A DNA stretch of 64,000 nucleotides, from assembly GCF_003855255.1 (NCBI RefSeq), contig NZ_CP034072.1, forward strand, positions 372,001 through 436,000. The letters run 5' to 3'. Shown here piece by piece: positions 44,207-64,000 of the stretch. The translations under genes were made by a program, and so were the position numbers. The stretch is from Mycolicibacterium nivoides. Its GTDB lineage: Bacteria > Actinomycetota > Actinomycetes > Mycobacteriales > Mycobacteriaceae. Numbering within the stretch: the first letter of the stretch is position 1; every line of letters begins with the position of its first letter. A model generated the notes under the pieces. It was not told the DNA's origin. It did not search any database and saw nothing but the letters and a program-made list of their open reading frames with translations.

Positions 44207-44219
44207 GAGAATTTCACCC

Positions 44220-46592: not shown

Positions 46593-46609
46593 TCGCATAG
46601 AGTATCCAA
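46593..46609. promoter_or_regulatory. Operator A (17-bp palindrome) upstream of gntR
   Basis: TCGCATA-GAG-TATCCAA, 22 bp before the GntR start. The right half matches sites B and C exactly and the left half five of seven bases of the perfect site B. Positions 6-11 of the element (TAGAGT, 46598-46603) fit the TANNNT -10 hexamer. Presence before the regulator's own gene suggests autoregulation. Confidence 0.7.
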
Positions 46610-46630
46610 TATTAGCGAAAGCGAGATTTG

Positions 46631-47356
46631 ATGCCACCGCGAACAGCCAACCGGCGTACAGCCGTCGCGTCCGCCTCCGCCACTGGAGCGCGGTCGGATT
46701 TCGTCCGGCCCAAGACCGCCCAGCAAGCGGTGGCCGAAGCGCTGCGACGCGACATCACCAGTGGCAAACTCGCGCCCGGCAGCTGGATCGTGCAGGAGAG
46801 CCTGGCCGAGCAGTTCGGTATGTCGCGAATTCCGGTTCGCGAGGCGCTGAAAACCCTTGAGGCCGAGGAGTACATCACCTACGTGCCGCACAGCGGATAT
46901 CGCGTCGCGCAACTCGGGTTGGACGAACTCGTCGAGGTGTTCCGGATTCGCGACATCCTCGAGGCCGAACTCATTCGTGATGCGATGCCGGCGGTCACCG
47001 ACGAACTCATCGATGCCATGCGTGAGCAGATGGCCGTGATGGACCGGGCCGCAGCCGAGGCTGATCTCATCGGGGTGGGCCTGGCTAACCGGCAGTTTCA
47101 CTTCCTGACCTTCGAGGCCAGTCGCATGGCGCGCACCAAGCGGATCGTCACCCAGCTGTGGAACACCGCTGACGCATATCGCCCGATGTATGCGCACCTG
47201 ATGGACCTGGACCAGGTCAACAGTGAGCACGTGCTGCTGGTCGATGCGATGGCGGCACGCGATGTCGATCGGGTGGTCGCGTTGAACCACCAGCACCGCA
47301 GTCATGCCATCGAACACCTGCACACCGTCTTCGGCAATCAGGACCCGGGAGCGTGA
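46631..47356 (+). CDS. GntR/FadR (FCD) family transcriptional regulator
   Basis: 241-residue regulator. After about 25 basic, Ala/Ser-rich residues comes the winged helix-turn-helix (AVAEALRRDITSGKLAPGSWI; LAEQFGMSRIPVREALKTLEAEEYI), then an FCD ligand domain (DELVEVFRIRDILEAELIRD; NRQFHFLTFEAS; EHVLLVDAMAARD), with His residues that usually bind a metal next to a carboxylate ligand. ATG at 46631. The stop overlaps the RidA start (GTGA). Four copies of one palindrome in the next 12 kb make it the likely local repressor. Confidence 0.92.
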   Translation: MPPRTANRRTAVASASATGARSDFVRPKTAQQAVAEALRRDITSGKLAPGSWIVQESLAEQFGMSRIPVREALKTLEAEEYITYVPHSGYRVAQLGLDELVEVFRIRDILEAELIRDAMPAVTDELIDAMREQMAVMDRAAAEADLIGVGLANRQFHFLTFEASRMARTKRIVTQLWNTADAYRPMYAHLMDLDQVNSEHVLLVDAMAARDVDRVVALNHQHRSHAIEHLHTVFGNQDPGA

Positions 47357-47814
47357 CGGTCGGGGAACGCTTGGCTTCGTTGGGGATCGAGCTGCCTGCA
47401 CCGGCGCGGCCGAAGGGAGCCTATTTTCCGAGCCGCCGGCATGGAGACCAGCTGTGGGTTTCGGGAACCACCGCGCGTCGTCCCGACGATCGGGGTGCGG
47501 TGGGTGTGGTCGGCGCTGACGTCACCGCTGAGCAGGCGGCAGCCCAGGCGCGGCTGGCTGCCCTCAATCTCGTGGCAGCGTTGGATGCCGCCGTCGGCCT
47601 GGATTCGGTCACCGCACTGGTGCATCTGCGTGGATACGTCCGCGCCACTTCGGATTTCGATTCCCATCCCGGGGTGATCGACGGAGCGTCGGAGCTGTTG
47701 CTCGAGGTATTCGGAGAAGAGTGCGGGGCGCACGCCCGCACCGCGATCGGGGTGGCGTCCTTGCCTGGTGGCGCGTGCGTGGAACTCGAACTCGTCGCAG
47801 CCGTGCGCGACTGA
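47353..47814 (+). CDS. RidA/YjgF family enamine/imine deaminase
   Basis: 153-residue Rid-family protein. Recognisable parts are FPSRRHGDQLWVSGTTARRP, ALVHLRGYVRATSDF and the C-terminal ARTAIGVASLPGGACVELELVAA, which keeps the Arg used by active RidA proteins to hydrolyse enamines and imines to ketones and ammonia. It is coupled to the GntR gene by a four-base overlap. Reactive enamine or imine intermediates are expected in N-heterocycle ring opening, which would explain its presence here. Confidence 0.9.
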   Translation: MTVGERLASLGIELPAPARPKGAYFPSRRHGDQLWVSGTTARRPDDRGAVGVVGADVTAEQAAAQARLAALNLVAALDAAVGLDSVTALVHLRGYVRATSDFDSHPGVIDGASELLLEVFGEECGAHARTAIGVASLPGGACVELELVAAVRD

Positions 47815-48408
47815 TCAGGACCGTCGCGCGGCGGTGCGTCCGATCGCAAGGCCGAGCGCGATCCCGGCCAAGGTGGTCAACAGGATCGAACACCAGTCGT
47901 TTTCGGTGAACCCTGCCTGTCGTCGGGTCGGGATCACTTCGACGACCGCGCTCTGGGTGCCGTCTGACCCCACAATCATCGTGTTGAGCTTGCGGACGAA
48001 CTGCCCGATGATGCGATTGCTGACCTGAGAGATGACTCCGCTGCCGAACTGGGCGATGCGGCCGCCTAGTTCGAGGTCGGTACGTACCGTGACTTCGGTG
48101 TGGTCGCCCCGTTCGCAGGCCGACATGGTGACTGTGGCTTCCGCCGAGCCGTTCCCTTTCCGGTCGCGGGCCTGGCCATGGACCGCCATCTCGTGCGTGC
48201 CGTCGTCGCGACGGATCACCGTCGCGGTGCCGGCGAGGGTGAGTCCGACCGGGCCCACTTTGATGGCGACGTTGGCGCGGTAGTCGTCACCGTCGTGGCT
48301 TTCCAGCGTCGCGCCAGGGATGCACTCGACCACGCGGGGCACGTCCGTCAGTGCCGCCCAGGCGATGTCGAGCGGGGCATCGACGGAGAACTCGTTGACT
48401 AGCTGCAT
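47815..48408 (-). CDS. CoxG-like SRPBCC protein with C-terminal membrane anchor
   Basis: 197-residue protein: an SRPBCC (START-like) domain typical of CoxG (MQLVNEFSVDAPLDIAWAAL; VVECIPGATLE; GPVGLTLAGTATV; DLELGGRIAQFGSGVI), a short linker and a C-terminal transmembrane helix (SILLTTLAGIALGLAIG). CoxG proteins accompany molybdenum hydroxylases and recruit them to the membrane. ATG at 48408 follows GAGGAGACGG; an upstream start at 48486 would run through operator B. It is divergent from the LLM gene. Confidence 0.88.
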   Translation of the reverse strand: MQLVNEFSVDAPLDIAWAALTDVPRVVECIPGATLESHDGDDYRANVAIKVGPVGLTLAGTATVIRRDDGTHEMAVHGQARDRKGNGSAEATVTMSACERGDHTEVTVRTDLELGGRIAQFGSGVISQVSNRIIGQFVRKLNTMIVGSDGTQSAVVEVIPTRRQAGFTENDWCSILLTTLAGIALGLAIGRTAARRS

Positions 48409-48469
48409 GGCGGTTTCCGTCTCCTCGATCGCGTGCTGCGGTTGTGCGTCCCGAAGGCCCGCCCTACGA

Positions 48470-48486
48470 TTGGATACGATATCCAA
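48470..48486. promoter_or_regulatory. Operator B (perfect 17-bp palindrome), coxG/LLM intergenic
   Basis: TTGGATA-CGA-TATCCAA is a perfect 7-3-7 inverted repeat, the best copy of the local element. It lies 21 bp before the LLM gene and 62 bp before the divergent coxG start, so one site can control both. Positions 6-11 (TACGAT, 48475-48480) fit a TANNNT -10. Confidence 0.75.
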
Positions 48487-48506
48487 CGTCGCCCAGGAGG
48501 TCGATA

Positions 48507-49502
48507 GTGCTGAGTAAGGGAGTCGGTCTGTTTCCGACCGAACCGGTGGGCACGATGTGTGAATACGTGCGGTTGAGCGAATCGCTCGGTTACGACAACG
48601 TCTGGTTCGGGGATTCGCAGAACATCTGGCGGGAGTCCTCCACCGTCATGGGAGCCGCAGCCGTCGGAACCGAACGCATCATCTTCGGCACCGGCGTCAC
48701 CAATGCGGTGACCCGGCATCAATCCCTGCTGGCGTCCACGTGGGCGACCCTGGCCGAATACACCGGTGGCCGGGTGGCGCTGGGCATCGGTACCGGCGAC
48801 TCGTCTTTGCGGACAATGGGTCTCAAGCCGCTCAAGCTGGCTGAGCTCGAAGAGTCGATCCGCGAGCTGCGCGCGTTGTTCAGGGGCGAGAAGGTGGCGG
48901 AGCCGACCAGCGGCTCCGAGTATCACCTCAACTATCTCACTGGTCCGATGGACATTCCGATCTACATCGCCGCCTCCGCCCCGAAGATCCTGCGGATGTC
49001 CGGACGCATCGCCGACGGTGTCATCGTGCTCGTCGGCACTGCACCGCACTTCATCGAGGCGGCGTTGCAGACGATCGAAGCCGGCGCCGCCGAGAGTGGC
49101 CGTTCCCTCGATGACATCCACGTGGTGCTGTGGACCCCGACGGCCATCGACGAAGATCGGACCAAGGCGCGGGATCTGGTGCGCGCGCACGTGTCCCGCG
49201 TGGCGATCAGGCCGCTCCCGGCCAAGGTGGATCCCGCCTTGGAGAAGGTGATCGATCGGATCCGAGACTCCTACGACTATTACCAGCACATGAATCCCGA
49301 GGCCTCGCACGCCGACCTGGTGCCCGACGAGCTGGTCGACCTGTTTGCGCTCGCCGGGACACCTGACGAATGCGCGCAGCGCCTCAAGGAGATCGAATCG
49401 CTTGGCGTCGACCAAGTGTCGATCGTGCCGTTCGTGCGACCCGGGGAGAGCCGGGCGCCCACCATCCGTACCTTCGCGCGCATCGTCGACGGCCGTGGCT
49501 GA
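48507..49502 (+). CDS. LLM-class (F420-type) flavin-dependent oxidoreductase
   Basis: TIM-barrel enzyme of the luciferase-like superfamily, 331 residues. Visible are GVGLFPTEPVGTMCEYVRLS, YDNVWFGDSQNIWRESS, RIIFGTGVTNAVTRHQSLL, GRVALGIGTGDSSLR and IPIYIAASAPKILRMSGRIADG. In mycobacteria close relatives of this type (methylene-H4MPT-reductase-like) mostly use F420; FMN cannot be excluded. GTG at 48507 follows AGGAGGT. Given its place among N-heterocycle genes it may reduce a hydroxylated ring with F420H2. Confidence 0.88.
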   Translation: MLSKGVGLFPTEPVGTMCEYVRLSESLGYDNVWFGDSQNIWRESSTVMGAAAVGTERIIFGTGVTNAVTRHQSLLASTWATLAEYTGGRVALGIGTGDSSLRTMGLKPLKLAELEESIRELRALFRGEKVAEPTSGSEYHLNYLTGPMDIPIYIAASAPKILRMSGRIADGVIVLVGTAPHFIEAALQTIEAGAAESGRSLDDIHVVLWTPTAIDEDRTKARDLVRAHVSRVAIRPLPAKVDPALEKVIDRIRDSYDYYQHMNPEASHADLVPDELVDLFALAGTPDECAQRLKEIESLGVDQVSIVPFVRPGESRAPTIRTFARIVDGRG

Positions 49503-49797: not shown

Positions 49798-49827
49798 AGA
49801 TCACAGTAATTCGTATAGTGTATCCAA
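49791..49827 (+). promoter_or_regulatory. SigA promoter with embedded operator C, ABC/Mo-hydroxylase operon
   Basis: TTGACC (49791-49796), a 17-base spacer and TATAGT (49814-49819) make a near-consensus SigA promoter. Operator C, TCGTATA-GTG-TATCCAA (49811-49827), overlaps the -10; its TANNNT hexamer in the shared register is TAGTGT (49816-49821). A protein bound here would block RNA polymerase, so the operon is likely repressed until an inducer is present. The first gene starts 29 bp downstream. Confidence 0.75.
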
Positions 49828-49856
49828 TATTCAACCCGTCTCGGAGGTTTGCGTCC

Positions 49857-50840
49857 ATGGCCTGGTTTCGTAAAGTGTTCGCCGCGGCGGGTACCGCGGT
49901 AGCACTCGTCGCGGCAGCAACCGCCTGTGCCGACGAATCGACAGGCCCGGAAAGTGGCGGTGCCGATACGCTGAGCATCTCGGCGACCGGCGTCGACAGT
50001 TTGCCGTTCATGGCGATACTGCAGGTCGGAATCGACAAGGGCTGGTTCAAAGAGCAGGGTGTCAACGTCGATCTTTATTCCGGTGGTGGCGGCGGCAACA
50101 CTCTGCGTGTGGTCACCAGCGGCGACGCGGATATGGCGATCGCCGGCAACAGTTCGGTGATTCTCGCGGCGCAGCAACCGAATTCGAACCTCAAGGTGGT
50201 TGCGCCCTGGTTCCAGGTCAACGACTTCTCGTGGATCTCGCCACCGGGCCGGAAACTGGAGAACGCCACCCTCGGGTTCAGTTCTGCGGGCTCGTCCACC
50301 GAGCTGATCGTCAAGGGCCTGGAGCGCAAGCTCGGGGTCAAGTCGCAAGCGGTGGGACCGATGGGTGACAACTGGACCGCTGCGAAGGCCGGTCAGATCA
50401 CCGCGGGTTGGGCCATGCAGCCGTTCATCGCCGACAAGCAGGCTTCCGATCACGCCGAGGTGCTCGTCGATTCCAGGGACGTGGTGGGCGACCTACCCGC
50501 CGACCTGGTCGCGGTGAATGCCGAATACGCTCAACGGAATCCCGATAAGGTGCGCGCGTTCTTCACCGTCGCCGATCGACTGAACGACTGGCTGGTGGCC
50601 AACCCCGGTGAGGCGGCCGATGAGATCGCCCCCCTGGTCGGAGTGTCGCCCGAAGTGATGAGGGCAGCGTTCGCCGGTAATCCCGATCTTGCCAAGGGCT
50701 ATTCCCTGAAAGTCGACGCGGAGGGGCTGAAGAATCTTTCCGAGCTGATGGTCGGTGCCGGGCAGATCCCGGAGCAGATCGATTGGGCCGCAACGCTTGA
50801 TCAGCAGTACCTGCCCGACGACGCGCAGACCGACATCTGA
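49857..50840 (+). CDS. ABC transporter substrate-binding lipoprotein (NMT1/SsuA/TauA-like)
   Basis: Exported solute receptor of 327 residues with a signal peptide and probable lipid-modified Cys in AAATACADES (about residue 28). The body shows the NMT1/THI5-like pattern: LPFMAILQVGIDKGWFKEQGVNVDL, SGDADMAIAGNSSVIL, LGFSSAGSSTELIVKGLE, AGQITAGWAMQPFIA. ATG at 49857 follows GGAGG. The family binds nitrate, sulfonates, taurine, pyrimidines and aromatic acids. The neighbouring catabolic genes suggest a heterocyclic carboxylate. Confidence 0.88.
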   Translation: MAWFRKVFAAAGTAVALVAAATACADESTGPESGGADTLSISATGVDSLPFMAILQVGIDKGWFKEQGVNVDLYSGGGGGNTLRVVTSGDADMAIAGNSSVILAAQQPNSNLKVVAPWFQVNDFSWISPPGRKLENATLGFSSAGSSTELIVKGLERKLGVKSQAVGPMGDNWTAAKAGQITAGWAMQPFIADKQASDHAEVLVDSRDVVGDLPADLVAVNAEYAQRNPDKVRAFFTVADRLNDWLVANPGEAADEIAPLVGVSPEVMRAAFAGNPDLAKGYSLKVDAEGLKNLSELMVGAGQIPEQIDWAATLDQQYLPDDAQTDI

Positions 50841-50875: not shown

Positions 50876-51685
50876 ATGGATCGTGACGGTATCCGGATCG
50901 ACAACGTCTCCGTGGTCTTCGACACCCCGGCCGGCAAGGTGACAGCGGTAACCGACATCAAACAGCACGTGCCGCATGCCAGTTTCGTGTCCATCGTCGG
51001 ACCGAGCGGGTGCGGAAAGTCGACCCTGCTGGCCGTGATCTCCGGTCTGCAGGAGTCATCAACCGGATTGGTGCGCGTCGCCGGAAGGCCCGTCACGGGC
51101 CCTGACCCGTCAATCGGTGTGGTGTTTCAGGAAGATTCCACGCTGCCGTGGCGCACGGTCGAAGAGAACGTGGCATTCGCGATGGAGATGATCGGGACCG
51201 ACAAGGCCGATCGCCGTCGACGGGCGAACGAGGCGATCGAACTGGTCGGACTCGGCGGCTTCGAAAAATCCTATCCCTCCATGCTTTCCGGAGGCATGCG
51301 GCAGCGGGTCGCGCTCGCGCGGACCTTGGCGGTTCAGCCGGAAGTGGTGCTGATGGACGAGCCGTTCGCGGCGCTCGACCAGCAGACCCGGCTGTTTCTC
51401 GGTGCCGAGGTACGGCAGATCTGGGCGAGAACCAAACAGACCATCGTGTTCGTCACCCATGATATTTCCGAGGCGATTCTGCTCTCCCAACAGGTTTGGG
51501 TGATGTCGTACCGGCCTGGATCGATCATCGATGTCGTTGACATCGACCTACCCGCCGAGCGTGACGCGAGCATGGTCTCCACCCCGCGATTCAACGAACT
51601 CCAGAACCGGATCTGGACGTCACTGCAAGCCGAATCCATGCGCGGGTTCAGACAGCAGGAAGCCCAGAAGAAGGTGGCTACGTGA
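50876..51685 (+). CDS. ABC transporter ATP-binding protein (SsuB/TauB-like)
   Basis: ATPase subunit of 269 residues. Walker A is GPSGCGKST, the Q-loop [14 protein letters not shown], the signature [13 protein letters not shown], Walker B VVLMDEPF with AALDQ, and the H-loop [13 protein letters not shown] at 50876. The stop overlaps the first permease start (GTGA). Confidence 0.93.
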
Positions 51686-52533
51686 CGACGTCTTATGTCG
51701 CACAGGATGACCTGCCCACCGAGGCCATGAGTACCCACGCGGGCCGCCCGGAGCCCCAGCGGCGCAAGGTCCGGTTGGGCAGCTCGGCGATCAGTCTGGT
51801 CTCGACACTCGCGCTCATCGTCGGCTTCCTACTGATCGCCGAGTTGGGAGCCCGGACGGGGCTGTGGAGTGACCGCATTCTGCCCGCGCCTTCGGTGATT
51901 CTGTCCGAGCTCGGCAGCCTCCTCGGCGAAGCGCAGTTCTGGAAGGACGCGGCCCGGACGGGTATCGAGGTGGCGTTCTCGATTCTGTTCGGCAGTTTAC
52001 TGGGTTTCGCGGCCGGCCTGACCTTCTGGAAGCTGCCTGCCGTCGGGCGCATCTTCGAGCCGTACCTGGTGTCGTTCTATGCGGTGCCGCTCGTGCTGTT
52101 CTATCCCGTGATGATCGTGATCGTCGGGATCAACGCGACGTCGGTGATCATCCTGGCGACCATCATGGCGGCCATTCCGATGGCGCTGAACACGGCGGTC
52201 GGGCTCAACACGATGCCGCCGGTGTACATGAAACTGGCCCGCTCACTGAAGGCTTCGCCCCGCCAGACCCTTTTCGCGATCGCCATCCCGGCGGCCGGCC
52301 CGTACATCGTGGCGGGCCTGCGCCTGGCCGTCGTCTACGCGCTGATCGGAACCATCGCGATGGAGTTCACCACCGCGCAGGCCGGCCTGGGCTACCGGAT
52401 CCGGTACCTCTACGAGATTTTCAACAACAACGAGATGTTCGCCTACATCGCGGTCGTGCTGGTGCTGTCCTGCATCCTCACGGCGCTGCTGGCCGCGGTG
52501 GAACGCATTCTGCTGCGCGGGAGGAACCGATGA
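51682..52533 (+). CDS. ABC transporter permease, first
   Basis: BPD-type inner-membrane permease of 283 residues with about six helices after a charged N-terminal segment. The EAA-loop region is [32 protein letters not shown], the contact to the ATPase. GTG at 51682 overlaps the ATPase gene, and its end overlaps the second permease (ATGA). Two different permeases with one ATPase suggest a heterodimeric channel. Confidence 0.92.
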
Positions 52534-53330
52534 CCTCGACCCTGCAGTCACCTGCCGGACACCATGCGGTGCCCGCGCCGCGAACCATGCCGCAGCGACT
52601 CCGCGCCGTCCTCGGCAACCAGGCCGTCGGGGCGACCCTGCTGGCACTCGTGGTGGTCGTCGTCTGGGAGATCTTCTCGGCGTTGACGTTTGTCATTCCC
52701 TCACCGGTGGAGACCTTCCGGGTACTCGTCCACAATCTTGCCGATCCCGGGTATCTGTTCGATCTGCAGGTCACAGCACAGTCGGTGTTCCTGGCGTTCG
52801 TGATAGGCACGGCAATCGGTGGGGCGCTGGGGCTCGTGCTCGGTCTGTCTCAGCGGTTGCGCGTGATGTTCGAGCCGATGCTGATAGTTCTGAACGGAAT
52901 TCCGAAGATCGTGCTGTACCCGGTACTGCTGCCGATCTTCAGCCTTTCTGGCTCCAAGATCGTCATGGGGGTGCTGTTCGCACTGTTTCCGGTATTGATC
53001 AACGTGACCACCGGCGTGCGGGAAATCCCGCGGGTGTACTGGAAACTGGCCCGGTCGGTGCGGGCCAACGGCTGGCAGACCTTGGTGCACATCATCATTC
53101 CGGCGATCCGGCGGCCGCTGTTGACCGGAATCCGGCTGGCGGTGAGCCTCGCGGTGGTCGGCGTGGTGCTGTCGGAGTTCTTCGCGACCAGACGAGGTCT
53201 CGGCCGGGTGGTACTGCAGGCCTACAGTCACGGCGACTACCCGTCCATGGTGGCCACCATCATGTTGCTGATCACCATCTCGTTCGGTATCTCGATCGCG
53301 CTCTGGCAGTGGGAGAAACGACTTCATTGA
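52530..53330 (+). CDS. ABC transporter permease, second
   Basis: Second SsuC/TauC-type permease, 266 residues, six helices. EAA region: YWKLARSVRANGWQTLVHIIIPAIRRPLLTGIRLA. It shares low but clear similarity with the first permease. The stop overlaps the likely TTG start of the molybdenum hydroxylase large subunit, so transporter and enzyme are one operon. Confidence 0.92.
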   Translation: MTSTLQSPAGHHAVPAPRTMPQRLRAVLGNQAVGATLLALVVVVVWEIFSALTFVIPSPVETFRVLVHNLADPGYLFDLQVTAQSVFLAFVIGTAIGGALGLVLGLSQRLRVMFEPMLIVLNGIPKIVLYPVLLPIFSLSGSKIVMGVLFALFPVLINVTTGVREIPRVYWKLARSVRANGWQTLVHIIIPAIRRPLLTGIRLAVSLAVVGVVLSEFFATRRGLGRVVLQAYSHGDYPSMVATIMLLITISFGISIALWQWEKRLH

Positions 53331-55660: not shown

Positions 55661-56538
55661 AGCCCGCGTCCTTTCATTACCTCCGGCCGGATTCGGTCGG
55701 CGAGGCCCTCGAGCAGTTGGCGAGTTATCCAGACGCCAAACTGATGGCCGGCGGACAGTCGCTGATGGCGCTGATGAACCTTCGGTTGGCGCGACCGAGC
55801 GTGATCATCGACATCGGCCGCCTCGATGAACTCCGGCGGGTTTTCGACGACACCGACGATCTGATCCTCGGCGCCTTGGTGACTCATCGCACCGTGGAGG
55901 TCGATCCGTTGATCGCCGCTCGCGCGCCGCTGCTGGCGACCGCTGCCGGCCAGATCGGACACATCGGGATCCGTAACCGAGGAACTCTCGGCGGTTCGGT
56001 GGCTCACGCCGATCCGGCGGCCGAAATGCCGTTGGCCACCTTGGTGCTCGGCGCGACATTTCACACCGAGTCCGCGCGCGGCGGCCGTCGCGCTGTCGCG
56101 GCCGAGGACATGTTCGTGTCGTTCTACACCAACGCGCTCGAACCGGACGAGATGGTCACGTGGGTTTCGATCCCCGCCATAGGCCGGGATCAGGGCTGGG
56201 GATTCGTCGAATATGCCCGGCAACATGGTGATTACGGGCTGGCCGGTGCCGGTTGCCTGCTGAGCGTCGACAGTGCGGGCCGGGTCGCGTCGTTGCGCGC
56301 CGGTGCTCTCAGCGCCGCGGACCGGCCACTGTTGTTCACCGGCGACGAGGTGGTCGGTGAACGTCCCTCGGCGCGATTGTGGCGAGGTCTGGCACAGCGT
56401 TGGGCGGCTACCGCCGAACCGTCGTCCGATGATCCCGACTACTCGCGGCGGTTGTGCGGCGAGGCTTTGGCGCAAGCGCTCACCGAAGCTCAGCGGCGCA
56501 TCGAAGAGGGACAGGAGACCTTCCATGCGGGCAATTGA
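55657..56538 (+). CDS. Molybdenum hydroxylase FAD-binding medium subunit
   Basis: 293-residue FAD subunit of the CoxM type. FAD-contact motifs AGGQSLMALMNLRLARP and TLGGSVAHADPAAEMPLATLVL are intact, followed by a C-terminal domain. It passes electrons from the iron-sulfur subunit to an acceptor. GTG at 55657 overlaps the large-subunit stop, and the 3' end overlaps the small subunit by 14 bp. Confidence 0.93.
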   Translation: MKPASFHYLRPDSVGEALEQLASYPDAKLMAGGQSLMALMNLRLARPSVIIDIGRLDELRRVFDDTDDLILGALVTHRTVEVDPLIAARAPLLATAAGQIGHIGIRNRGTLGGSVAHADPAAEMPLATLVLGATFHTESARGGRRAVAAEDMFVSFYTNALEPDEMVTWVSIPAIGRDQGWGFVEYARQHGDYGLAGAGCLLSVDSAGRVASLRAGALSAADRPLLFTGDEVVGERPSARLWRGLAQRWAATAEPSSDDPDYSRRLCGEALAQALTEAQRRIEEGQETFHAGN

Positions 56539-57046
56539 GACGCTGGCTACCGATACGTCGCAGCCGCCGGCGGGTGTGCCGATATCAGCTGTGGTCAACG
56601 GCAGGTCGATACAGCGCACGGTGGCGCCCCGATTGACGCTGGCCGATTTTCTGCGGGACGAACTGGGCCTGACCGGAACACACCTGGGTTGCGAGCACGG
56701 GGTATGCGGCGCTTGTTCGGTATTCCTCGATGGTCGCAGCGTGCGCACCTGCCTCATGCTGGCGGTGCAGATCGACGGGATGCGGGTGACGACGGTCGAG
56801 GGTCTCGAGGAGTTCGAGGAGACCAGAAGGCTGCGCCAGGCGTTTTCCGAGCGAGGGGGCCTGCAGTGCGGGTTCTGTACTCCGGGATTCCTCGTCACTG
56901 CCGTCGAGCTGTTGCGTGATCCCGATACCGAGAAGCCGCTGACCGAGGATTCGGTGCGAGAGGCGTTGTCAGGCAATATCTGCCGTTGCACCGGCTACCA
57001 AGGCATCGTGCAGGCGGTGCTGGACGCCGCCGGTCAATCCGGGTGA
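56525..57046 (+). CDS. Molybdenum hydroxylase [2Fe-2S] small subunit
   Basis: 173-residue electron-transfer subunit of the CoxS type. The plant-type cluster is ligated by Cys56, 61, 64 and 76 (GCEHGVCGACSVFLDG...RTC), the second by Cys115, 118, 153 and 155 (QCGFCTPGF and ICRCTGY). About 18 residues precede the ferredoxin-like domain, which is slightly longer than usual. ATG at 56525 lies inside the FAD-subunit gene; gene order large-medium-small is unusual compared with many xdh/cox loci (medium-small-large). Confidence 0.93.
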   Translation: MRAIETLATDTSQPPAGVPISAVVNGRSIQRTVAPRLTLADFLRDELGLTGTHLGCEHGVCGACSVFLDGRSVRTCLMLAVQIDGMRVTTVEGLEEFEETRRLRQAFSERGGLQCGFCTPGFLVTAVELLRDPDTEKPLTEDSVREALSGNICRCTGYQGIVQAVLDAAGQSG

Positions 57047-58071
57047 TGGCGTCGCGCGCGGGGCCTGCCGACAGCCTTGTGAACGTAGGCCGGCTCCGCA
57101 CTCCGGAGCTGCTGCGTCCCGTGGGCAGTAGCCGGTGGGGGATGGGTGCGGCGCTCGCCGTCGGGCTGGGTGTGATCCTTTGTGGCACAGCTCTGTTGGG
57201 CCGGGCCGAGTGGGGGTCGGCGATCGGGCTGGGCTTCGTGCTGACCGCCGTTCCCGAGATACCCACCGCCTGGCGCCCGGCCCTGCACACCATGGCTGTG
57301 CGAGCCGCTACGGTGATGGCCGCCGGAGCGCTCGTCGTCAGCATGCACAACGCCGTGGTACTCGCGGCGCTCACCGTCGCGGCGTCGATCGCGGGCGCAC
57401 TCGTGCCAGGGGTCGGTGCCACGGCGGGCCTCGCGGTGGTTCTGATATCGCTCGACCTGGATGCCGACGCCACGGGTCCGACCGCGCTGTGGCCGTATCT
57501 CGTCGGCATCGTCATCGTGTTCGTCGGCTGGATGGTGTGGTTCGCGGTATCCCGGCTGCGGCACCGCGGCGAGGATGAGCCGACCTCGGCGAGCGGCCCG
57601 GCCGGGGTGGCTCATGCGGTTCGCGTAGGCGTCGCCGTGGGGCTGGCCGTCTTGCTGGCGACACTGCTGCCCGCCGGGATGGTGGGCGGCCATTGGTTGG
57701 TCACCAGCGTGCTGTTGACCATTCAGCCGAGCCAGTCCCAGACCGGCCAGCGCTTGGCCCAGCGGCTTTCGGGCAACGCAGTCGGTGCGGTGATCGCCGC
57801 AGCTCTGCTGGGGGCACATCCACCGGCGCCGGTGGTGATCGGACTGACCGTGGTGCTGTTCCTGCTCGCGATGGCGCTGCGGCCTGTCAACTACACGTGG
57901 TGGGCGATCACCGGTCCTCCCGTGCTGCTGGTGATCAGTGAATACCCGGAATTGTTCCCCTGGTACGAGGGCGTGGTGCGGCTGGCGATGAATATCGCGG
58001 GCGCGTTGATCGTGTTGCTGGTCGTGTTCGTGGCGCCGTTGGTGGCACCGATGTGGTTGCGGCAGCGGTGA
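57046..58071 (+). CDS. FUSC family membrane protein
   Basis: 341-residue membrane protein with about ten hydrophobic helices in two similar halves, each starting with a WGxG or HWLVTSV-type motif (GSSRWGMGAALAVGLGVIL; MVGGHWLVTSVLLTIQPSQSQTGQRLAQRLSGN). The second half is the FUSC/aromatic-acid-exporter signature. It is the last gene of the importer-hydroxylase operon (start overlaps the small-subunit stop). It may export a toxic substrate or hydroxylated intermediate; direction of transport cannot be read from sequence. Confidence 0.82.
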   Translation: MASRAGPADSLVNVGRLRTPELLRPVGSSRWGMGAALAVGLGVILCGTALLGRAEWGSAIGLGFVLTAVPEIPTAWRPALHTMAVRAATVMAAGALVVSMHNAVVLAALTVAASIAGALVPGVGATAGLAVVLISLDLDADATGPTALWPYLVGIVIVFVGWMVWFAVSRLRHRGEDEPTSASGPAGVAHAVRVGVAVGLAVLLATLLPAGMVGGHWLVTSVLLTIQPSQSQTGQRLAQRLSGNAVGAVIAAALLGAHPPAPVVIGLTVVLFLLAMALRPVNYTWWAITGPPVLLVISEYPELFPWYEGVVRLAMNIAGALIVLLVVFVAPLVAPMWLRQR

Positions 58072-58143: not shown

Positions 58144-58160
58144 TCGGATAGTGTATACAA
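58144..58160. promoter_or_regulatory. Operator D (17-bp palindrome) upstream of the enamidase operon
   Basis: TCGGATA-GTG-TATACAA matches the perfect site B at six of seven bases in each half. Its TANNNT hexamer is TAGTGT (58149-58154), the same register as in the other copies. It lies 21 bp before the GTG of the enamidase-like gene. Confidence 0.7.
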
Positions 58161-58181
58161 AATCCAACCGTGGGAGGACCT

Positions 58182-59402
58182 GTGACCACACTGCTCGTCG
58201 AGGACATCGGCCTGCTGGTGTCCGGCGATGCCTCGTCGCCACCCCAGCGTGACACCACGCTGCTGATCGAGGACGGATACGTCGCAGGCATCGGGGTCGA
58301 CCACCACGATCCCGACCACGTGCTGTCCGCCGGCGGGTTGACCGTCGTACCCGGACTCGTCGACGGGCACGTGCACCCGACGTTCGGCGAGTGGACGCCG
58401 GCACAGAACTCGATCGGTTGGATCGGCAACTATCTCCAGGGCGGGACCACCTCGATGGTGTCCGCGGGCGAACTGCACATCCCCGGCTTGGATTTCGGCG
58501 CGCTGACGCCGGAACTCGTACTGAGCATCGCGATCACGTCCAAGCACACCACCGGGCGTGCGCGCCCTTCGGGCGTGAAGGTCAACGCGGGCACGGTGCT
58601 GCTGGTGCCGGGTATGACAGAGGAGCACTTCGACCGGGCGCACTGCGAAGGCATCGACCAACTCAAGTTCATCTTCTACGACTGGAGCCGGCTGGGCGAC
58701 GGCGAAGCGCAGCGCTACGTCCAATGGGCCCATGAACGCGGCATGACCGTCAAGATGCACTCAGGCGGGGTGTCGCGGTCCGGGTCGAGCCGGGTGGCCG
58801 GACGTGACGTCGTGGTAGCGGTCAAGCCGGACATCGTGGGTCATATCTCGGGTGGCCCGATCCCACCCCCTGACGACGACATCGTGGCGATCATCGCCGA
58901 TCTGCCCTCGGCGCACGTCGAGGTGTGCAGCTCCATGAACTACCGCGCGACCAAACTGGTCGTCGACCAACTGTCCGCGCGCGACGAACTCGGCAGGCTC
59001 ACGCTCGGCACCGATACACCCGGCGGCACCGGCGTGATCCCTCGAGGAATGCTGCGCAACATCTGCTTTCTGGCCTCGGTCTGCGGCGTCGACCCGGCCC
59101 GCGCGGTTGCGGCGGCCACCGGCCAGACCGCGCGGGCACACGGCCTGGACACCGGGGTGCTCGCGGAAGGGCGACCTGCCGACCTGCTGGTCCTCGGACC
59201 GGTCACCGGATCGACCGCCGACGACGCCCTGGACTGCTTTGCCTTCGGTGACCTACCGGGCATCGCGACCGTGCTGGTCGACGGTATGCCACTGGTGAAG
59301 ACACGCAGTGAACAGACCCCGCCTCCGAGCCGCGCGGTCAAATGGCGCGGCGAGCCGGCGCCGGCCGCGCATTCCACGGAGCGCCGCATCGGGTGCTGCT
59401 GA
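58182..59402 (+). CDS. Enamidase-like amidohydrolase
   Basis: Binuclear-metal amidohydrolase of 406 residues. Candidate ligands are His63/His65 (DGHVHP), His193 (KMHSGG), His221 (GHISGG) and Asp278 (TDTPGGTGVIP). As I recall its sequence, Eubacterium barkeri enamidase, which opens 1,4,5,6-tetrahydro-6-oxonicotinate to 2-formylglutarate, shares the start (VSGD), RPxGVKV, GLTEEDF-like and GDxPGIxxVLxDG segments over the whole length. The role here is thus probably cyclic enamide hydrolysis. GTG at 58182 follows GGGAGGA. Heads the enamidase-ACAD-E1-CoA-transferase operon. Confidence 0.82.
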   Translation: MTTLLVEDIGLLVSGDASSPPQRDTTLLIEDGYVAGIGVDHHDPDHVLSAGGLTVVPGLVDGHVHPTFGEWTPAQNSIGWIGNYLQGGTTSMVSAGELHIPGLDFGALTPELVLSIAITSKHTTGRARPSGVKVNAGTVLLVPGMTEEHFDRAHCEGIDQLKFIFYDWSRLGDGEAQRYVQWAHERGMTVKMHSGGVSRSGSSRVAGRDVVVAVKPDIVGHISGGPIPPPDDDIVAIIADLPSAHVEVCSSMNYRATKLVVDQLSARDELGRLTLGTDTPGGTGVIPRGMLRNICFLASVCGVDPARAVAAATGQTARAHGLDTGVLAEGRPADLLVLGPVTGSTADDALDCFAFGDLPGIATVLVDGMPLVKTRSEQTPPPSRAVKWRGEPAPAAHSTERRIGCC

Positions 59403-59433: not shown

Positions 59434-60633
59434 ATGGTTGAAGCTGCTGTGGCCCCGCGCAGTTCCGGAACCGTCGACGCCGACCCGATGTTCGGTATCG
59501 ATGCGCTGCTCTCGGCCGAAGAACGCGAGATTCGCGACACCGTGCGATCGGTCGTCCAGCGGAGTATCAGCCCGCACGTCGCGAGTTGGTATGAGAGCGG
59601 CGAGCTCCCGGCCCGTGAGTTGGCGCGCGAGCTCGGCGAACTCGGGTTGCTCGGCATGCACCTGCAGGGTTACGGATGCGCGGGCACCAGCGCGGTGGCC
59701 TACGGGTTGGCCTGCCTGGAGCTGGAAGCCGGTGACTCCGGGATCCGGTCGCTGGTCAGCGTGCAGGGATCGCTGGCCATGTTCGCCATTCACACATTCG
59801 GCAGCGAGGAGCAGAAGCAGCGGTGGCTCCCGGCGATGTCCGCCGGTCGCACGATCGGGTGCTTCGGCCTCACCGAACCCGACCACGGGTCCAACCCGGC
59901 CGGGATGCGAACCCGGGCTATCCGGTCCGGCGACGACTGGGTGTTGACCGGCACCAAGATGTGGATCACCAACGGATCGGTGGCCGATGTGGCCGTCATC
60001 TGGGCGCGCACCGACGAGGGCGTCCGCGGCTTCGTCGTACCCACGGACACAACGGGTTTCGCCGCCAACACGATCAAGTCGAAGATGTCGCTGCGGGCGT
60101 CGGTGACCAGCGAGTTGGTACTCGACGGTGTCCGGCTGCCCGACAGCGCGCGGCTCCCCGGAGCGACCAGTCTCGGCGCGCCGCTGCGCTGTCTGAACGA
60201 GGCGCGGTTCGGCATCGTTTTCGGTGCCCTCGGTGCGGCGCGGGACTGCCTGCAGACCGCACTGGAGTATGCGCGGTCACGTGAACAGTTCGGCCGGCCG
60301 ATCGGCGGCTTCCAGCTCACGCAGCAGAAGCTCGCGGACATGACGCTGGAGTACGGAAAGGGTGTGTTGCTCGCACTGCACCTCGGCAGGCGTAAGGACG
60401 CCGGCGATCTGGTTCCGGATCAAGTCAGCCTCGGCAAGCTCAACAATGTCCGGGAAGCCCTGGAGATCGCCCGCACCGCGCGCACCATCCTGGGCGCCAG
60501 CGGTATCAGTGCCGAATATCCGGTGATGCGGCACGCCAACAACCTGGAATCGGTGTTGACCTACGAAGGCACCAGCGAAATGCATAGTCTGATCATCGGG
60601 CAGGCGCTCACCGGAATTCCGGCGTTCCGCTGA
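59434..60633 (+). CDS. Glutaryl-CoA dehydrogenase-like acyl-CoA dehydrogenase
   Basis: FAD enzyme of 399 residues of the glutaryl-CoA dehydrogenase branch, which oxidises and decarboxylates glutaryl-CoA to crotonyl-CoA. Typical segments are GYGCAGTSAVAYGL, GDSGIRSLVSVQGSL (Arg105 is the residue binding the distal carboxylate), GCFGLTEPDHGSNP, YARSREQFGRPIGGFQLTQQKLADM and LTYEGTSEMHSLIIGQALTG with catalytic Glu378. ATG at 59434 follows CAGGAG. It is 31 bp after the enamidase gene, linking ring opening to a glutarate route. Confidence 0.88.
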   Translation: MVEAAVAPRSSGTVDADPMFGIDALLSAEEREIRDTVRSVVQRSISPHVASWYESGELPARELARELGELGLLGMHLQGYGCAGTSAVAYGLACLELEAGDSGIRSLVSVQGSLAMFAIHTFGSEEQKQRWLPAMSAGRTIGCFGLTEPDHGSNPAGMRTRAIRSGDDWVLTGTKMWITNGSVADVAVIWARTDEGVRGFVVPTDTTGFAANTIKSKMSLRASVTSELVLDGVRLPDSARLPGATSLGAPLRCLNEARFGIVFGALGAARDCLQTALEYARSREQFGRPIGGFQLTQQKLADMTLEYGKGVLLALHLGRRKDAGDLVPDQVSLGKLNNVREALEIARTARTILGASGISAEYPVMRHANNLESVLTYEGTSEMHSLIIGQALTGIPAFR

Positions 60634-60664
60634 TCGTCCGCCCGCCGCGAGCTCAGGAGGCCAG

Positions 60665-62827
60665 GTGGCCAGTTCTCACCACGAAGCCATCGACGAATAC
60701 TTCTGCACCACCGTTTCGGAGTTCACTGGACCCGGCGACCAACCGTGGCCCGACGGATCGGCGTTGACCGAACGGATTGCATTGGCCCTCTTCGACGCCC
60801 AGCTGGGCAGTCGCCACCTCGACCTGGCCGCGCGCTGGTTGCGGGCACAGGGCAAAGGCTTCTACACGATCGGATCATCCGGACACGAGGGCAACGCGGC
60901 GGTCGCCGCGGCGCTGCGCGCAGACGATCCAGCACTGCTGCATTACCGTTCCGGAGGTTTCTACCTGGCCCGTGCTGCTCAGGTGGCCGGCAGCGATCCT
61001 GTGCGCGATGTGCTGCTGGGCCTGGTCGCTGCCACTGACGAGCCGATTTCCGGCGGGCGGCACAAGGTGTTCGGCCGCCACGACCTGAACATCATTCCGC
61101 AGACTTCGACGATCGCCTCGCACCTACCGCGGGCGGTGGGGGTCGCCTTTTCGATCGCCCGGGCCCGCAAACTCGATGTCGCCTGTCCGTGGCCCGACGA
61201 TGCGGTCACGGTGTGCAGCTTCGGTGACGCATCAGCCAACCACTCCACGGCCGTGGGCGCGATCAATGCCGCACTGCACGCCTCCTACCAGGGACTGCCC
61301 ATGCCGCTGCTGTTCGTCTGTGAAGACAACGGCATCGGGATCAGTACCAAGACGCCGCGCGGGTGGGTGGCCCGGACTTATGCCCACCACGACGGACTCA
61401 AGTATTTCGCCGCCGACGGCTGCGATCTGTTCACGGCGTTCGACACCGCACTGGCCGCCGCACAGTGGGTGCGCAACCATCGCAAACCCGCCTTCCTGCA
61501 TCTCGGCACGGTTCGGCTGATGGGCCATGCCGGCTCCGACTACGAGCCGGCCTATCGCAGGCCCGATGAAATCCTGGCCGACTTCGACCGAGATCCGGTG
61601 CTCAATACCGCGAGAATCCTTGTGGCACACGGTGTACTAACCGCCAGCGACGCCGTCGAGCGATACGAGGCCAAACGGACCGAGGTGATCGCGCTGGCAG
61701 GGGAGCTCAGCGCCTGCTCACAGCTCGACAGCGCGCCGGCGGTGATGAAACCGCTGCGCGATACGTTCGACGAGGCCCGGGCGGTCTCGGTGGCCGGCCC
61801 GGCAGAACCGGGCGGCGCGCCGCTGACCCTGGCGCTGGCCATCAACCGAGCCCTCAAGGACGTGCTGCGAGCGCACCCGGAGGCGATCGCATTCGGAGAG
61901 GACATCGCCCGCAAAGGCGGCGTCTATGGCGTCACCCGGGGCCTGCAGAACACCGCCGGACCCGCCCGCGTGTTCGACACCCTGCTCGACGAACAAACGA
62001 TTCTCGGCCTGGCCCTGGGGGCCGGGCTATCGGGCCTGCTGCCGATCCCGGAGATCCAGTACCTGGCCTATCTGCACAACGCGGCCGACCAGATCCGCGG
62101 TGAGGGAGCCACGCTGCAGTTCTTCTCCAACCGCCAGTACCGGAATCCGATGGTGGTGCGGATCGCGGGCTACGGCTACCAGAAGGGATTCGGCGGCCAC
62201 TTCCACAACGACGACTCGATCGCTGCGATCCGCGACATCCCCGGGGTGGTGATCGCATCGCCGGCCCGGCCCGACGATGCGGCAGCGATGTTGCACACCT
62301 GCGTCGCCGCGGCGAAAACCGCTGGTGCCGTGTGCGTTTACCTCGAACCGATCGCCCTGTACCACACCAGGGACCTGCACGCCGATGGCGATCAGGAATG
62401 GTTGGCGCCCTATCCGGCCGAGCCGGTGCGCATCGGTGCGGCCCGCACCTACGGTGCCGGCGCCGACCTGACCATCCTGACGTTCGGCAACGGATTGTGG
62501 ATGAGCCTGCGGGTGGCCCGTCGCCTGGAGCAGGCCGGGATCGCCGCGCGGGTGGTCGACCTGCGCTGGCTGTCGCCGCTGCCGGTCGAGGACATGCTGC
62601 GCGAGGCGGACGCGACCGGCCGGGTGCTCATCGTCGACGAGACCCGCCGCACCGGAGGCGTGGGGGAAGGCGTGCTGGCCGAACTCATCGATCACGGCTT
62701 CACCGGCAGCGTGCAGCGCGTGGCCAGTGCCGACAGCTTCATCCCGCTGGGCGACGCCGCGCTGCAGGTGCTGTTGTCCGAGGACACCATCGAGGCCGCC
62801 GCAGTGAAACTGGTCGGCGCACGATAG
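60665..62827 (+). CDS. Fused alpha/beta 2-oxoacid dehydrogenase-type E1 (ThDP enzyme)
   Basis: 720-residue single-chain E1. The N-terminal half is the alpha part with a ThDP-Mg motif (SFGDASANHSTAVGAINAAL) and YRSGGFYLARAAQ; the C-terminal half (from about 375) is the beta part with AFGEDIARKGGVYGVTRGLQ, EIQYLAYLHNAADQIRGEGA and the final swivel domain (VVDLRWLSPLPVEDMLREA). Such fused E1s feed branched-chain-type complexes, but no E2 or E3 gene is in the window. Substrate unknown. GTG at 60665 follows CAGGAGG. Confidence 0.88.
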   Translation: MASSHHEAIDEYFCTTVSEFTGPGDQPWPDGSALTERIALALFDAQLGSRHLDLAARWLRAQGKGFYTIGSSGHEGNAAVAAALRADDPALLHYRSGGFYLARAAQVAGSDPVRDVLLGLVAATDEPISGGRHKVFGRHDLNIIPQTSTIASHLPRAVGVAFSIARARKLDVACPWPDDAVTVCSFGDASANHSTAVGAINAALHASYQGLPMPLLFVCEDNGIGISTKTPRGWVARTYAHHDGLKYFAADGCDLFTAFDTALAAAQWVRNHRKPAFLHLGTVRLMGHAGSDYEPAYRRPDEILADFDRDPVLNTARILVAHGVLTASDAVERYEAKRTEVIALAGELSACSQLDSAPAVMKPLRDTFDEARAVSVAGPAEPGGAPLTLALAINRALKDVLRAHPEAIAFGEDIARKGGVYGVTRGLQNTAGPARVFDTLLDEQTILGLALGAGLSGLLPIPEIQYLAYLHNAADQIRGEGATLQFFSNRQYRNPMVVRIAGYGYQKGFGGHFHNDDSIAAIRDIPGVVIASPARPDDAAAMLHTCVAAAKTAGAVCVYLEPIALYHTRDLHADGDQEWLAPYPAEPVRIGAARTYGAGADLTILTFGNGLWMSLRVARRLEQAGIAARVVDLRWLSPLPVEDMLREADATGRVLIVDETRRTGGVGEGVLAELIDHGFTGSVQRVASADSFIPLGDAALQVLLSEDTIEAAAVKLVGAR

Positions 62828-62837
62828 CTTGACTGGC

Positions 62838-64000
62838 ATGGCCGAATCTGTGACGCCGGATCCGACCCGTCCGCTGGCCGGGGTGCGCATCATCGAGATC
62901 TCCAGCTTCGTCGCCGTGCCGCTGGCGGGCATGACCCTGGCCCAGTTGGGGGCCGAGGTGGTGCGGGTGGATCCCATCGGGGGTGCTGCCGACTATCACC
63001 GCTGGCCGCTCACCGACGGCGGTGACAGCATCTACTGGGCCGGGCTGAACAAGGGCAAGCGCTCGCTGGCCGCCGATATGCGCTCACCCGAGGGGCAGCA
63101 GCTGGTACAGCAGCTGATCGCCGAGGCCGGCGTGCTCATCACGAATGTGGCCGGGCGGCAGTGGCATTCGTACGACGTACTGTCCGCGCTGCGTCCCGAC
63201 CTGATCCATGTCGAGGTGTCTGGGCGCGCCGACGGTGGCACCGGGGTGGATTACACGGTCAACGCCGGCCTGGGCTTCCCGATGGTGACCGGGCCCGCGC
63301 AGTTGGCCACGCCGGTCAACCATGTGCTTCCGGCCTGGGATGTCAGCTGCGGGCTGTACGTGGCGCTGGCAGTCAGTGCCGCACTGCGCCATCGGGATTC
63401 CACCGGTGAGGGCGCACGGATCAGTATTCCCCTGGAGAACGTCGCACTCGCCACGGCGGGCAATCTCGGGTTCCTGACCGAGGTGATGATCAACGGCACC
63501 GGCCGAGAACGGCTCGGCAATACCCTGTACGGCACCTACGGGCAGAACTTCACCAGCAGCGACGGCGTCGGCTTCATGCTCGTGGCGCTCACCGGCCGGC
63601 ATTTCCGCGATCTCACCGAAGTCACCGGGACCACCAAAGCCGTTGCCGCCCTTGCGGAGGCGTTCGGTGCCGACTTCAGCGACGAAGGTCAGCGCTACAC
63701 CCACCGCGACGCGCTGACCGGACTGTTCACCCTCTGGTTCAGCGAGCACACCGCCGAGGAGATCAGCACAGCGCTCTCGGGAACATCGGTGCTCTGGGAG
63801 CGGTACCGCAGCTTCGCCGAGGTCGCCGTCAACGAGCGGGTCGTCGCCAACCCGCTGTTCACCCCGCTGGAGCAACCCCGTATCGGGACCTACCTGGCGC
63901 CGGGCCTGCCCGTGTCGATCGGTGGGATGTATCCGCCCGCCGTCCCCGCGCCCGCGCTCGGGGACGACACCACCGCCGTGCTGGCCGAACACCTCGGGCT
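62838..64000 (+). CDS. CaiB/BaiF class III CoA-transferase, 3'-truncated by the window edge
   Basis: Open to the end of the window (387 codons). It has the family start PLAGVRIIEISSFVAVPLAGMTLAQLGAEVV, NKGKRSLAADMRSPEG, and GTGVDYTVNAGLGFPM, where the Asp of VDYT is the likely catalytic residue. Class III enzymes move CoA between carboxylic acids; the human glutarate CoA-transferase SUGCT belongs to this class. Behind a glutaryl-CoA dehydrogenase-like gene it may form glutaryl-CoA. ATG at 62838 is ten bases after the E1 stop. Confidence 0.88.
   Translation, partial: MAESVTPDPTRPLAGVRIIEISSFVAVPLAGMTLAQLGAEVVRVDPIGGAADYHRWPLTDGGDSIYWAGLNKGKRSLAADMRSPEGQQLVQQLIAEAGVLITNVAGRQWHSYDVLSALRPDLIHVEVSGRADGGTGVDYTVNAGLGFPMVTGPAQLATPVNHVLPAWDVSCGLYVALAVSAALRHRDSTGEGARISIPLENVALATAGNLGFLTEVMINGTGRERLGNTLYGTYGQNFTSSDGVGFMLVALTGRHFRDLTEVTGTTKAVAALAEAFGADFSDEGQRYTHRDALTGLFTLWFSEHTAEEISTALSGTSVLWERYRSFAEVAVNERVVANPLFTPLEQPRIGTYLAPGLPVSIGGMYPPAVPAPALGDDTTAVLAEHLG

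Follow-up and report, generated by a model that had tools for sequence, protein, structure and literature searches.

A putative GntR-controlled regulon of Mycolicibacterium nivoides for the reductive catabolism of a pyridine-2-carboxylate

Organisation and regulation of the cluster

We analysed a 64,000-nucleotide stretch of the Mycolicibacterium nivoides genome (the window), which covers bases 372001-436000 of one contig of 6.9 Mb. At its right-hand end is a catabolic cluster of 17 genes that spans positions 46593-64876 and so runs 876 bases beyond the window. An earlier note on this DNA had placed an N-heterocyclic-acid catabolic island here; the start at 46593 is real, and the end lies past the window rather than at its last base. 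The named gene frames contain no internal stops. Every gene family listed in that note was found at its place by profile or structure-sequence searches (Pfam, curated profiles and PDB sequences). On balance, we favour the view that the cluster is a GntR-controlled regulon for an aerobic pathway in which a pyridine-2-carboxylate, most probably picolinate, would be degraded reductively; all of the chemistry is predicted from sequence.

The cluster has four promoter regions and, judging from gene spacing and operators, probably five transcription units. The first unit, on the plus strand, encodes a GntR/FCD transcriptional regulator (46631..47356; PF00392 and PF07729; ATG start at 46631) and a RidA-family protein (47353..47814; PF14588/PF01042; related to Rid proteins in the PDB), which may be a 2-enamine/2-imino acid deaminase. 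The second and third units diverge from a common region. On the minus strand is the gene for a CoxG-like SRPBCC protein with a hydrophobic C-terminus (47815..48408; PF06240). On the plus strand, where all other genes in the window part of the cluster also lie, is the gene for an LLM oxidoreductase (48507..49502; Bac_luciferase). The fourth unit encodes an ABC importer, a molybdenum (Mo) hydroxylase and a membrane protein. The importer comprises an NMT1/SsuA-type substrate-binding protein (49857..50840; PF09084, with TIGR01728 below its cut-off; ATG at 49857 after GGAGG), an ATP-binding protein (50876..51685) and permeases 1 (51682..52533) and 2 (52530..53330). The Mo hydroxylase has large (53309..55660), FAD (55657..56538) and 2Fe-2S (56525..57046; start by inspection) subunits. 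The ATP-binding protein, the permeases and the two smaller hydroxylase subunits were assigned from profile matches. The membrane protein resembles FUSC/aromatic-acid exporters (57043..58071; PF13515). The fifth unit begins with an enamidase-family amidohydrolase, the putative ring opener (58182..59402; GTG start after GGGAGGA). Next are a glutaryl-coenzyme A (CoA) dehydrogenase (59434..60633; 767 bits with 3sf6, its nearest match, a M. smegmatis protein) and a fused thiamine diphosphate (ThDP)-dependent 2-oxo acid dehydrogenase E1 (60665..62827; PF00676, PF02779 and PF02780). The latter, which joins alpha and beta parts, is a candidate 2-oxoadipate E1. The unit ends with a class III CoA-transferase (62829..64000 in the window, true end 64067; PF02515; 8apq) and, past the window on the same contig, a TesB-type thioesterase (64064-64876). 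Scans of the window found no tRNA and no Rfam match at gathering scores.

We compared the locus with others of the genus. A close enamidase is encoded by 40 of 396 same-genus genomes, the host included, and loci were compared from 29 of the other 39. Presence was scored at a threshold of at least 40% identity, and named loci reach at most ~10 kb each side of the enamidase gene, less on short contigs. The genes for GntR, RidA, CoxG, the three Mo hydroxylase subunits and the enamidase are present in all 29 loci. LLM is found in 28, FUSC in 27, the fused E1 in 26 and glutaryl-CoA dehydrogenase in 25; the CoA-transferase and thioesterase occur in just 12. Missing genes aside, gene order is kept throughout. 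Among the incomplete loci, L189 reaches the end of its contig just after the enamidase gene, L171 lacks glutaryl-CoA dehydrogenase, and L181 and L185 lack both glutaryl-CoA dehydrogenase and E1. In a wider sample of 394 genomes of the class, where five LLM candidates were scored per genome, a close LLM (E up to 1e-90) was found in three, the sample's three then-known cluster carriers.

Alignment of the gap between the CoxG and LLM genes across the 29 loci revealed a conserved inverted repeat, from which we derived the operator consensus TYGNATA-N3-TATCCAA. Copies are present at all four promoter regions of the cluster. Operator 2, in the divergent gap (48470..48486; TTGGATA-CGA-TATCCAA), has no mismatches, with 0.04 matches expected at three or fewer mismatches. 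Operators 1 (TCGCATAGAGTATCCAA; 46593..46609), 3 (TCGTATAGTGTATCCAA; 49811..49827) and 4 (TCGGATAGTGTATACAA; 58144..58160), all on the plus strand, precede the GntR, binding-protein and enamidase genes respectively. Operator 1 is present at its place in most compared loci, and operator 4 is overlapped by a weaker match at 58151-58167. The rest of the 64-kb window has no copy at three or fewer mismatches (0.26 expected per 64 kb). Across 32 loci, we counted 133 sites with up to two mismatches, 130 at cluster promoters and three elsewhere; some enamidase promoters were counted twice through overlapping matches, and the figure is not independent because the pattern was derived from the same promoters and the loci are related. 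For the same reasons, the count in the 64-kb window is the cleaner control. In six loci, 20 permutations of the pattern gave between 0 and 5 matches and the real pattern gave 30. Because the operator occurs at the four promoter regions and nowhere else in the window, the cluster looks like one regulon, and the GntR protein is the likely owner of the operator. The proposal of a single catabolic island for an N-heterocyclic acid is supported.

The LLM oxidoreductase and the enamidase

By profile and by sequence, the LLM protein is nearest to methylenetetrahydromethanopterin reductase (Mer). Its scores fall below the curated Mer cut-offs (187.4 bits against 276; 172.5 against 348.7). Hence, it is Mer-like rather than Mer. 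A structure model (predicted local distance difference test score 90.9) was searched against the PDB; the top eight chains were Mer, F420 enzymes filled all of the first 18 places and FMN enzymes began at rank 19, so that the grouping with F420 enzymes is one of match ranking. The host genome encodes 85 Bac_luciferase matches and also CofH/FbiC (538 bits against a cut-off of 374).

PyrA and RutA, which act on pyridine and uracil, are FMN monooxygenases that open the ring oxidatively. If the LLM protein worked in the same way, RidA would have the part that it plays in the Rut pathway, and the substrate of the amidohydrolase would be a linear enamide. The combination of LLM, RidA and amidohydrolase is the gene mix of the pyridine and Rut pathways. 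However, the enzyme resembles Mer and other F420 enzymes more closely than FMN monooxygenases, which start only at fold rank 19, and profile searches identified no cluster gene as a flavin reductase. On the ranking of sequence and fold matches we rejected an FMN monooxygenase, and we regard this explanation as highly improbable.

The strongest hint of F420, which is independent of the LLM protein itself, comes from two genomes, G1090 and G1067. In each, the stop codon of the enamidase gene and the start codon of a gene for F420-dependent glucose-6-phosphate dehydrogenase (FGD) overlap within TGATGG. With a cut-off of 420 bits, the G1090 copy (locus L181) reaches 713; the G1067 copy shares 90% identity with it and reached 717 bits when the genome was searched. 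Both genomes have three FGD genes, compared with one each in the host (G000), G279 and G260. The G1090 and G1067 enamidases are 91% identical. Hence, the two genomes are close relatives and the FGD insertions may be one event. The extra FGD also speaks against oxidative cleavage by an FMN enzyme. Taken together, the data make F420-dependent ring reduction by the LLM protein quite probable.

The iron-sulfur enzyme 6-hydroxynicotinate reductase (Hnr) was searched for with the Bradyrhizobium protein (L096), and its distribution was compared with that of LLM. Among 131 locus records, two of them flanks that lack an enamidase and many of them with neither reductase, Hnr is found in 40 and the cluster-type LLM in 32. 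The two never occur together. Hnr was not found in the LLM genomes G000, G279, G260, G431 and G1017, nor in G173; in the host this held at E values up to 10. The identical query detects Hnr in G402, G371 and G1018. Of these, G402 and G371 belong to the same phylum as the host and also have CofH. Hence, F420 supply alone does not decide between LLM and Hnr. Replacement of Hnr by an LLM enzyme using F420H2, as the earlier note had proposed, is well supported by this mutual exclusion, together with the likeness to Mer and the extra FGD. A different LLM protein, 24-26% identical to that of the window, lies near an enamidase gene in four Acidimicrobiia metagenome-assembled genomes (MAGs; L050, L057, L058 and L060).

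The closest solved relative of the window enamidase is the enamidase 2vun, matched over its full length (E 1.4e-81; the next match is at E 1.8e-4). The model fold agrees with the solved enamidase (template modelling scores 0.86/0.91). Residues H62, H64, H192, H220 and D277, the metal ligands of the amidohydrolase family, are invariant in 18 of 18 aligned proteins. The order of steps suggested before, in which Mo hydroxylation comes first and the enamidase would open the ring after reduction, is supported. In a tree of 109 enamidases, the window protein belongs to a clade of 14 rows, 12 with LLM and two with neither reductase. All 40 Hnr-linked enamidases fall outside it. The solved enzyme 2vun is 61% identical to an Hnr-linked Clostridiales protein and 40% identical to the window enamidase. 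The window clade (11 rows compared) differs at many fixed positions from a set of 41 comprising the 40 Hnr-linked proteins and 2vun. Two arginines fixed in the 41 are lost (positions 78 and 107) and Lys 166, Arg 203 and Arg 292 are gained, in the numbering of the frame from 58170; these residues were compared at the level of sequence.

The picture is different in Nocardioides soli (L044). Its LLM protein, 52% identical to that of the window, is accompanied by an enamidase from outside the window clade, and neither RidA nor E1 was found nearby. The small cluster consists of an IclR-like regulator, the classic-clade enamidase, NitT/TauT transporter genes and LLM. Possibly, it carries out the nicotinate route with F420.

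Identity of the ring acid and the lower pathway

Profile searches identify the importer as a NitT/TauT-type ABC system with two permeases. Its binding protein gave weak NMT1/THI5-like matches only, which are uninformative on the substrate. The best solved relatives of the Mo hydroxylase are 6-hydroxypseudooxynicotine dehydrogenase (7dqx; 458 bits) and quinoline 2-oxidoreductase (1t3q); nicotinate dehydrogenase (3hrd) is a distant match (127 and 105 bits). The hydroxylase sequence is uninformative about the ring position attacked. A quinone-shuttle role has been attributed to mycobacterial CoxG. In this cluster, the CoxG-like protein is a candidate membrane link for the Mo hydroxylase. Excerpts of a study of Sulfolobus describe CoxG-like proteins that fasten a dehydrogenase to the membrane (PMC11962113).

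The lower pathway genes are more telling. The RidA protein has 2-aminomuconate deaminase (6izh) among its PDB relatives, with weak similarity (E 1.8e-4). The E1 has 3duf as its nearest E1 beta in the PDB (E 3.5e-45). Three lineages were compared; in each, RidA, glutaryl-CoA dehydrogenase and enzymes acting on 2-oxo acids accompany the upper-pathway genes. In the same-genus lineage, RidA and the fused E1 lie inside the regulon. In G431, from another class of the phylum, there are a Mo hydroxylase, an enamidase (62%), LLM (60%) and CoxG, and a glutaryl-CoA dehydrogenase gene (64%) is followed directly by genes for E1 alpha, E1 beta and E2. In G1598, from the family of Nocardioides soli, the cluster encodes LLM (79%), glutaryl-CoA dehydrogenase (69%), enamidase (68%), RidA (57%), GntR (46%) and CoxG (29%). 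It shows a single weak operator site, at the enamidase; hence, the operator is a same-genus feature. The G1598 genome has no E1 orthologue. Instead of E1, the cluster has a ThDP decarboxylase, aldehyde dehydrogenases and a CoA-transferase. The decarboxylase is nearest to 5-guanidino-2-oxopentanoate decarboxylase and the CoA-transferase to the succinate-glutarate CoA-transferase model; all of these enzymes, the CoA-transferase included, score below the curated cut-offs. The enzyme sets of G431 and G1598 would both convert a 2-oxo acid to an acyl-CoA. A 2-oxo acid intermediate is, in our judgement, quite likely, and we favour 2-oxoadipate because of the fused E1, the RidA protein and their functional replacements in the other lineages.

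The nature of this intermediate bears on the substrate. A pyridine-2-carboxylate would yield 2-aminohex-2-enedioate and then 2-oxoadipate, and nicotinate would yield 2-formylglutarate. The earlier note had preferred nicotinate. By that route, an F420 version of the one in Azorhizobium, nicotinate would be hydroxylated to 6-hydroxynicotinate and reduced by LLM with F420H2 to 1,4,5,6-tetrahydro-6-oxonicotinate. The enamidase would then give 2-formylglutarate, which would pass via glutarate and the CoA-transferase to glutaryl-CoA and crotonyl-CoA. The enamidase is of the family of the Eubacterium barkeri nicotinate enzyme, LLM and Hnr replace one another beside enamidases, and the cluster holds both a class III CoA-transferase and a glutaryl-CoA dehydrogenase. 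In Azorhizobium, glutarate continues to glutaryl-CoA. The passage of that nicotinate route through glutarate is described in excerpts of PMC3511419. However, a nicotinate route leaves E1 and RidA without a role. Inside the operator-marked units we saw no candidate 2-formylglutarate decarboxylase and no aldehyde dehydrogenase. The CoA-transferase that glutarate would require is present in only the 12 loci noted above; local CoA-transferase genes are also found in just two of the 40 Hnr loci, so this patchiness is not decisive. A role for the window protein as a glutarate CoA-transferase was considered and rejected. Its scores are 397 bits for the 2-methylfumaryl-CoA isomerase model TIGR04253 (cut-off 725) and 123 bits for that of succinate-glutarate CoA-transferase (cut-off 750). 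The same queries found no RidA, ThDP enzyme, G1598-type aldehyde dehydrogenase, E1 or E2 in any of the 40 Hnr loci. Apart from the two CoA-transferases, these loci held one isochorismatase-like gene and one weak acyl-CoA dehydrogenase match (L049, 92 bits). In addition, the window enamidase lies outside the Hnr-linked clade. Hence, we did not adopt nicotinate and glutarate as the principal explanation, and consider them an unlikely, if coherent, alternative. The end point at glutaryl-CoA and crotonyl-CoA, which the earlier note also proposed, is retained.

For picolinate, the steps would be as follows. The ring acid would be taken up by the ABC importer. The Mo hydroxylase, which CoxG may help to hold at the membrane, would oxidise C6 of picolinate to give 6-hydroxypicolinate (6-oxo-1,6-dihydropicolinate). 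The Mer-like LLM enzyme would transfer a hydride from F420H2 to C4, with a proton added at C5. The predicted product, 1,4,5,6-tetrahydro-6-oxopicolinate, is a cyclic enamide. Hydrolysis of this lactam by the enamidase would release 2-aminohex-2-enedioate. RidA could then deaminate the enamine or imine to 2-oxoadipate and ammonium, much as its distant relative acts on 2-aminomuconate. Together with E2/E3 recruited from a different complex, the fused E1 would form glutaryl-CoA, which glutaryl-CoA dehydrogenase would convert to crotonyl-CoA for beta-oxidation. The CoA-transferase and thioesterase would be accessory. The substrate, the regiochemistry, each reaction and binding by the regulator are, in this scheme, predictions.

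The same enamide could in principle arise from the other direction. In a lysine/pipecolate-type route, LLM would oxidise 6-oxopipecolate with F420, and enamidase, RidA and E1 would lead to glutaryl-CoA. The end products would be identical and Mer-type enzymes are reversible. However, the Mo hydroxylase, CoxG and aromatic-acid exporter would be unnecessary, and an oxidative step would have no need of F420H2, the product of the FGD encoded beside the enamidase. There is, in our view, very little chance that this is the route.

A further alternative concerns only the entry point. The substrate could be a masked or more substituted 2-carboxypyridine, such as an amide or a dicarboxylate, with the same route below 2-oxoadipate; in G1598, UbiD/UbiX and an isochorismatase-like hydrolase would strip the extra group. 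Genes for all three are within the G1598 island, and UbiD is also found near the sister enamidases L034 and L035. Conversely, the same queries found none of them in the window or the same-genus loci. We think such an entry improbable. The UbiD-like decarboxylases of L034 and L035 belong to two alphaproteobacterial MAGs; that of the G1598 island (L198) occurs together with UbiX.

Several observations weigh against the picolinate route as a whole. No relative of the Mo hydroxylase is known to be specific for picolinate; the closest solved ones act on a nicotine derivative and on quinoline. No E2/E3 for the fused E1 was seen within the cluster, so that the description of the island as complete-looking was slightly generous. 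G1090, G1067 and G1378 lack an E1 orthologue (paralogues of 33-35% identity or nothing); these genomes would use either another 2-oxo acid dehydrogenase or another route. The E1 alpha of G431 passes the pyruvate dehydrogenase E1 alpha cut-off (421 against 411) and its E2 passes none. Hence, a role for the G431 E1 with 2-oxoadipate rests on the adjoining glutaryl-CoA dehydrogenase gene. The G431 and G1598 clusters also hold a Rieske oxygenase, HyuA/B and UbiD/UbiX, for which the scheme has no use. The lack of lower-pathway genes in Hnr loci weighs less than their presence in LLM loci because Hnr loci hold few such genes at all. With regard to the reduction step, no FGD match was found in G1378, G431 or G1598 at the threshold used in the genome search, so their F420H2 must come from another source. 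Locus L183 (G1293) is without LLM; it also lacks two transporter genes, has an inner stop in the enamidase frame and looks decayed. Finally, given the gene set of Nocardioides soli, LLM may also serve a nicotinate-type ring.

Other genes near such clusters were noted. An aldehyde dehydrogenase (42713-44206) and an aminotransferase (44058-45605) upstream of the cluster were considered as pathway steps and rejected; they lie beyond a HAD gene, itself present in just 10 of 32 loci, and outside the operator-marked units. With a MatC-like carrier and an AMP-binding ligase, the aldehyde dehydrogenase and this class III aminotransferase occupy 38189-45605 and perhaps belong to an independent unit for malonate or beta-amino acids. 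A run of Mce-like genes, recognised by eye from translations, lies beyond the downstream end of the cluster in the host genome (L009, 7190-14984). G431 has a second LLM-enamidase pair, on contig 160 (L114 and L128; LLM 37%, enamidase 43%), with RidA, a homocitrate/isopropylmalate-synthase-like gene and an aldehyde dehydrogenase. It adjoins a Rieske oxygenase pair and HyuA/HyuB-like genes, both identified by eye, and possibly serves a second ring acid; the tree position of this enamidase is unsure, as its branch is long.

Relation to known pathways

The nearest known systems are the nicotinate clusters with Hnr and enamidase of E. barkeri, Azorhizobium and Bradyrhizobium. A Mo hydroxylase, reduction to a cyclic enamide, an enamidase and an ABC transporter are common to both. 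In contrast to those clusters, the window has LLM and not Hnr, an enamidase of a separate clade and a different Mo hydroxylase lineage, and its regulon holds RidA, E1 and glutaryl-CoA dehydrogenase. Excerpts of PMC3511419 describe Hnr from Azorhizobium/Bradyrhizobiaceae as well as from E. barkeri, an anaerobe; parts of PMC9304392 and PMC7356986 likewise deal with the route by Hnr and enamidase or with the enamidase of E. barkeri. We file the cluster as a variant of reductive pyridine-acid catabolism and not as a member of the Hnr nicotinate pathway.

The pic pathway of Alcaligenes/Bordetella has in common with the cluster the probable substrate and the first intermediate, 6-hydroxypicolinate. 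In excerpts of PMC10142695, it continues with a second hydroxylation, decarboxylation and oxidative cleavage of 2,5-dihydroxypyridine to fumarate; the route proposed here would instead use reduction and hydrolysis to 2-oxoadipate. None of PicB-PicG, which serve the pic route through 3,6-dihydroxypicolinate, was recognised among the cluster genes in general profile searches, which included no pic-directed query and did not extend to the genome. With Mer and bacterial F420 LLM reductases, the window enzyme has in common its fold, its closest sequence family and, presumably, hydride transfer from F420H2 (background on F420 is given in parts of PMC6279831). It differs in falling short of the Mer cut-off and in its setting, ring catabolism. 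2-Aminomuconate deaminase is a RidA-family deaminase that acts on a C6 2-enamino diacid. The proposed RidA substrate would be the dihydro analogue of that compound; sequence similarity between the two proteins is weak, as noted above. The Arthrobacter 68b pyridine pathway and the Rut pathway also combine LLM with an amidohydrolase or RidA, but their ring cleavage is oxygen- and FMN-dependent, unlike the route proposed for the window.

In the open-licence literature we found no pathway that degrades a pyridine acid with F420 or through 2-oxoadipate; most subscription papers lie outside that scope, so the negative carries little weight. The chances are about even, in our estimation, that the cluster encodes an undescribed aerobic, F420H2-dependent, dearomatising picolinate pathway of Actinobacteria, running via 2-oxoadipate and glutaryl-CoA, with its own GntR regulator and operators at four promoter regions. 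Arthrobacter, Streptomyces and Rhodococcus are among the Gram-positive isolates that degrade picolinate, and the only strain with a studied gene cluster named in the excerpted parts of PMC10142695 is Gram-negative.

The cluster suggests a catabolic role for one of the many orphan LLM proteins in the genus and makes a concrete prediction, the conversion of picolinate to 2-oxoadipate. If true, it would be, to our knowledge, the first catabolic reduction of a pyridine ring by F420, and would supply genes to account for the use of picolinate by Gram-positive bacteria. In Actinobacteria, another enzyme class and another cofactor appear to serve the reductive opening of pyridine acids, for which Hnr was the known reductase.

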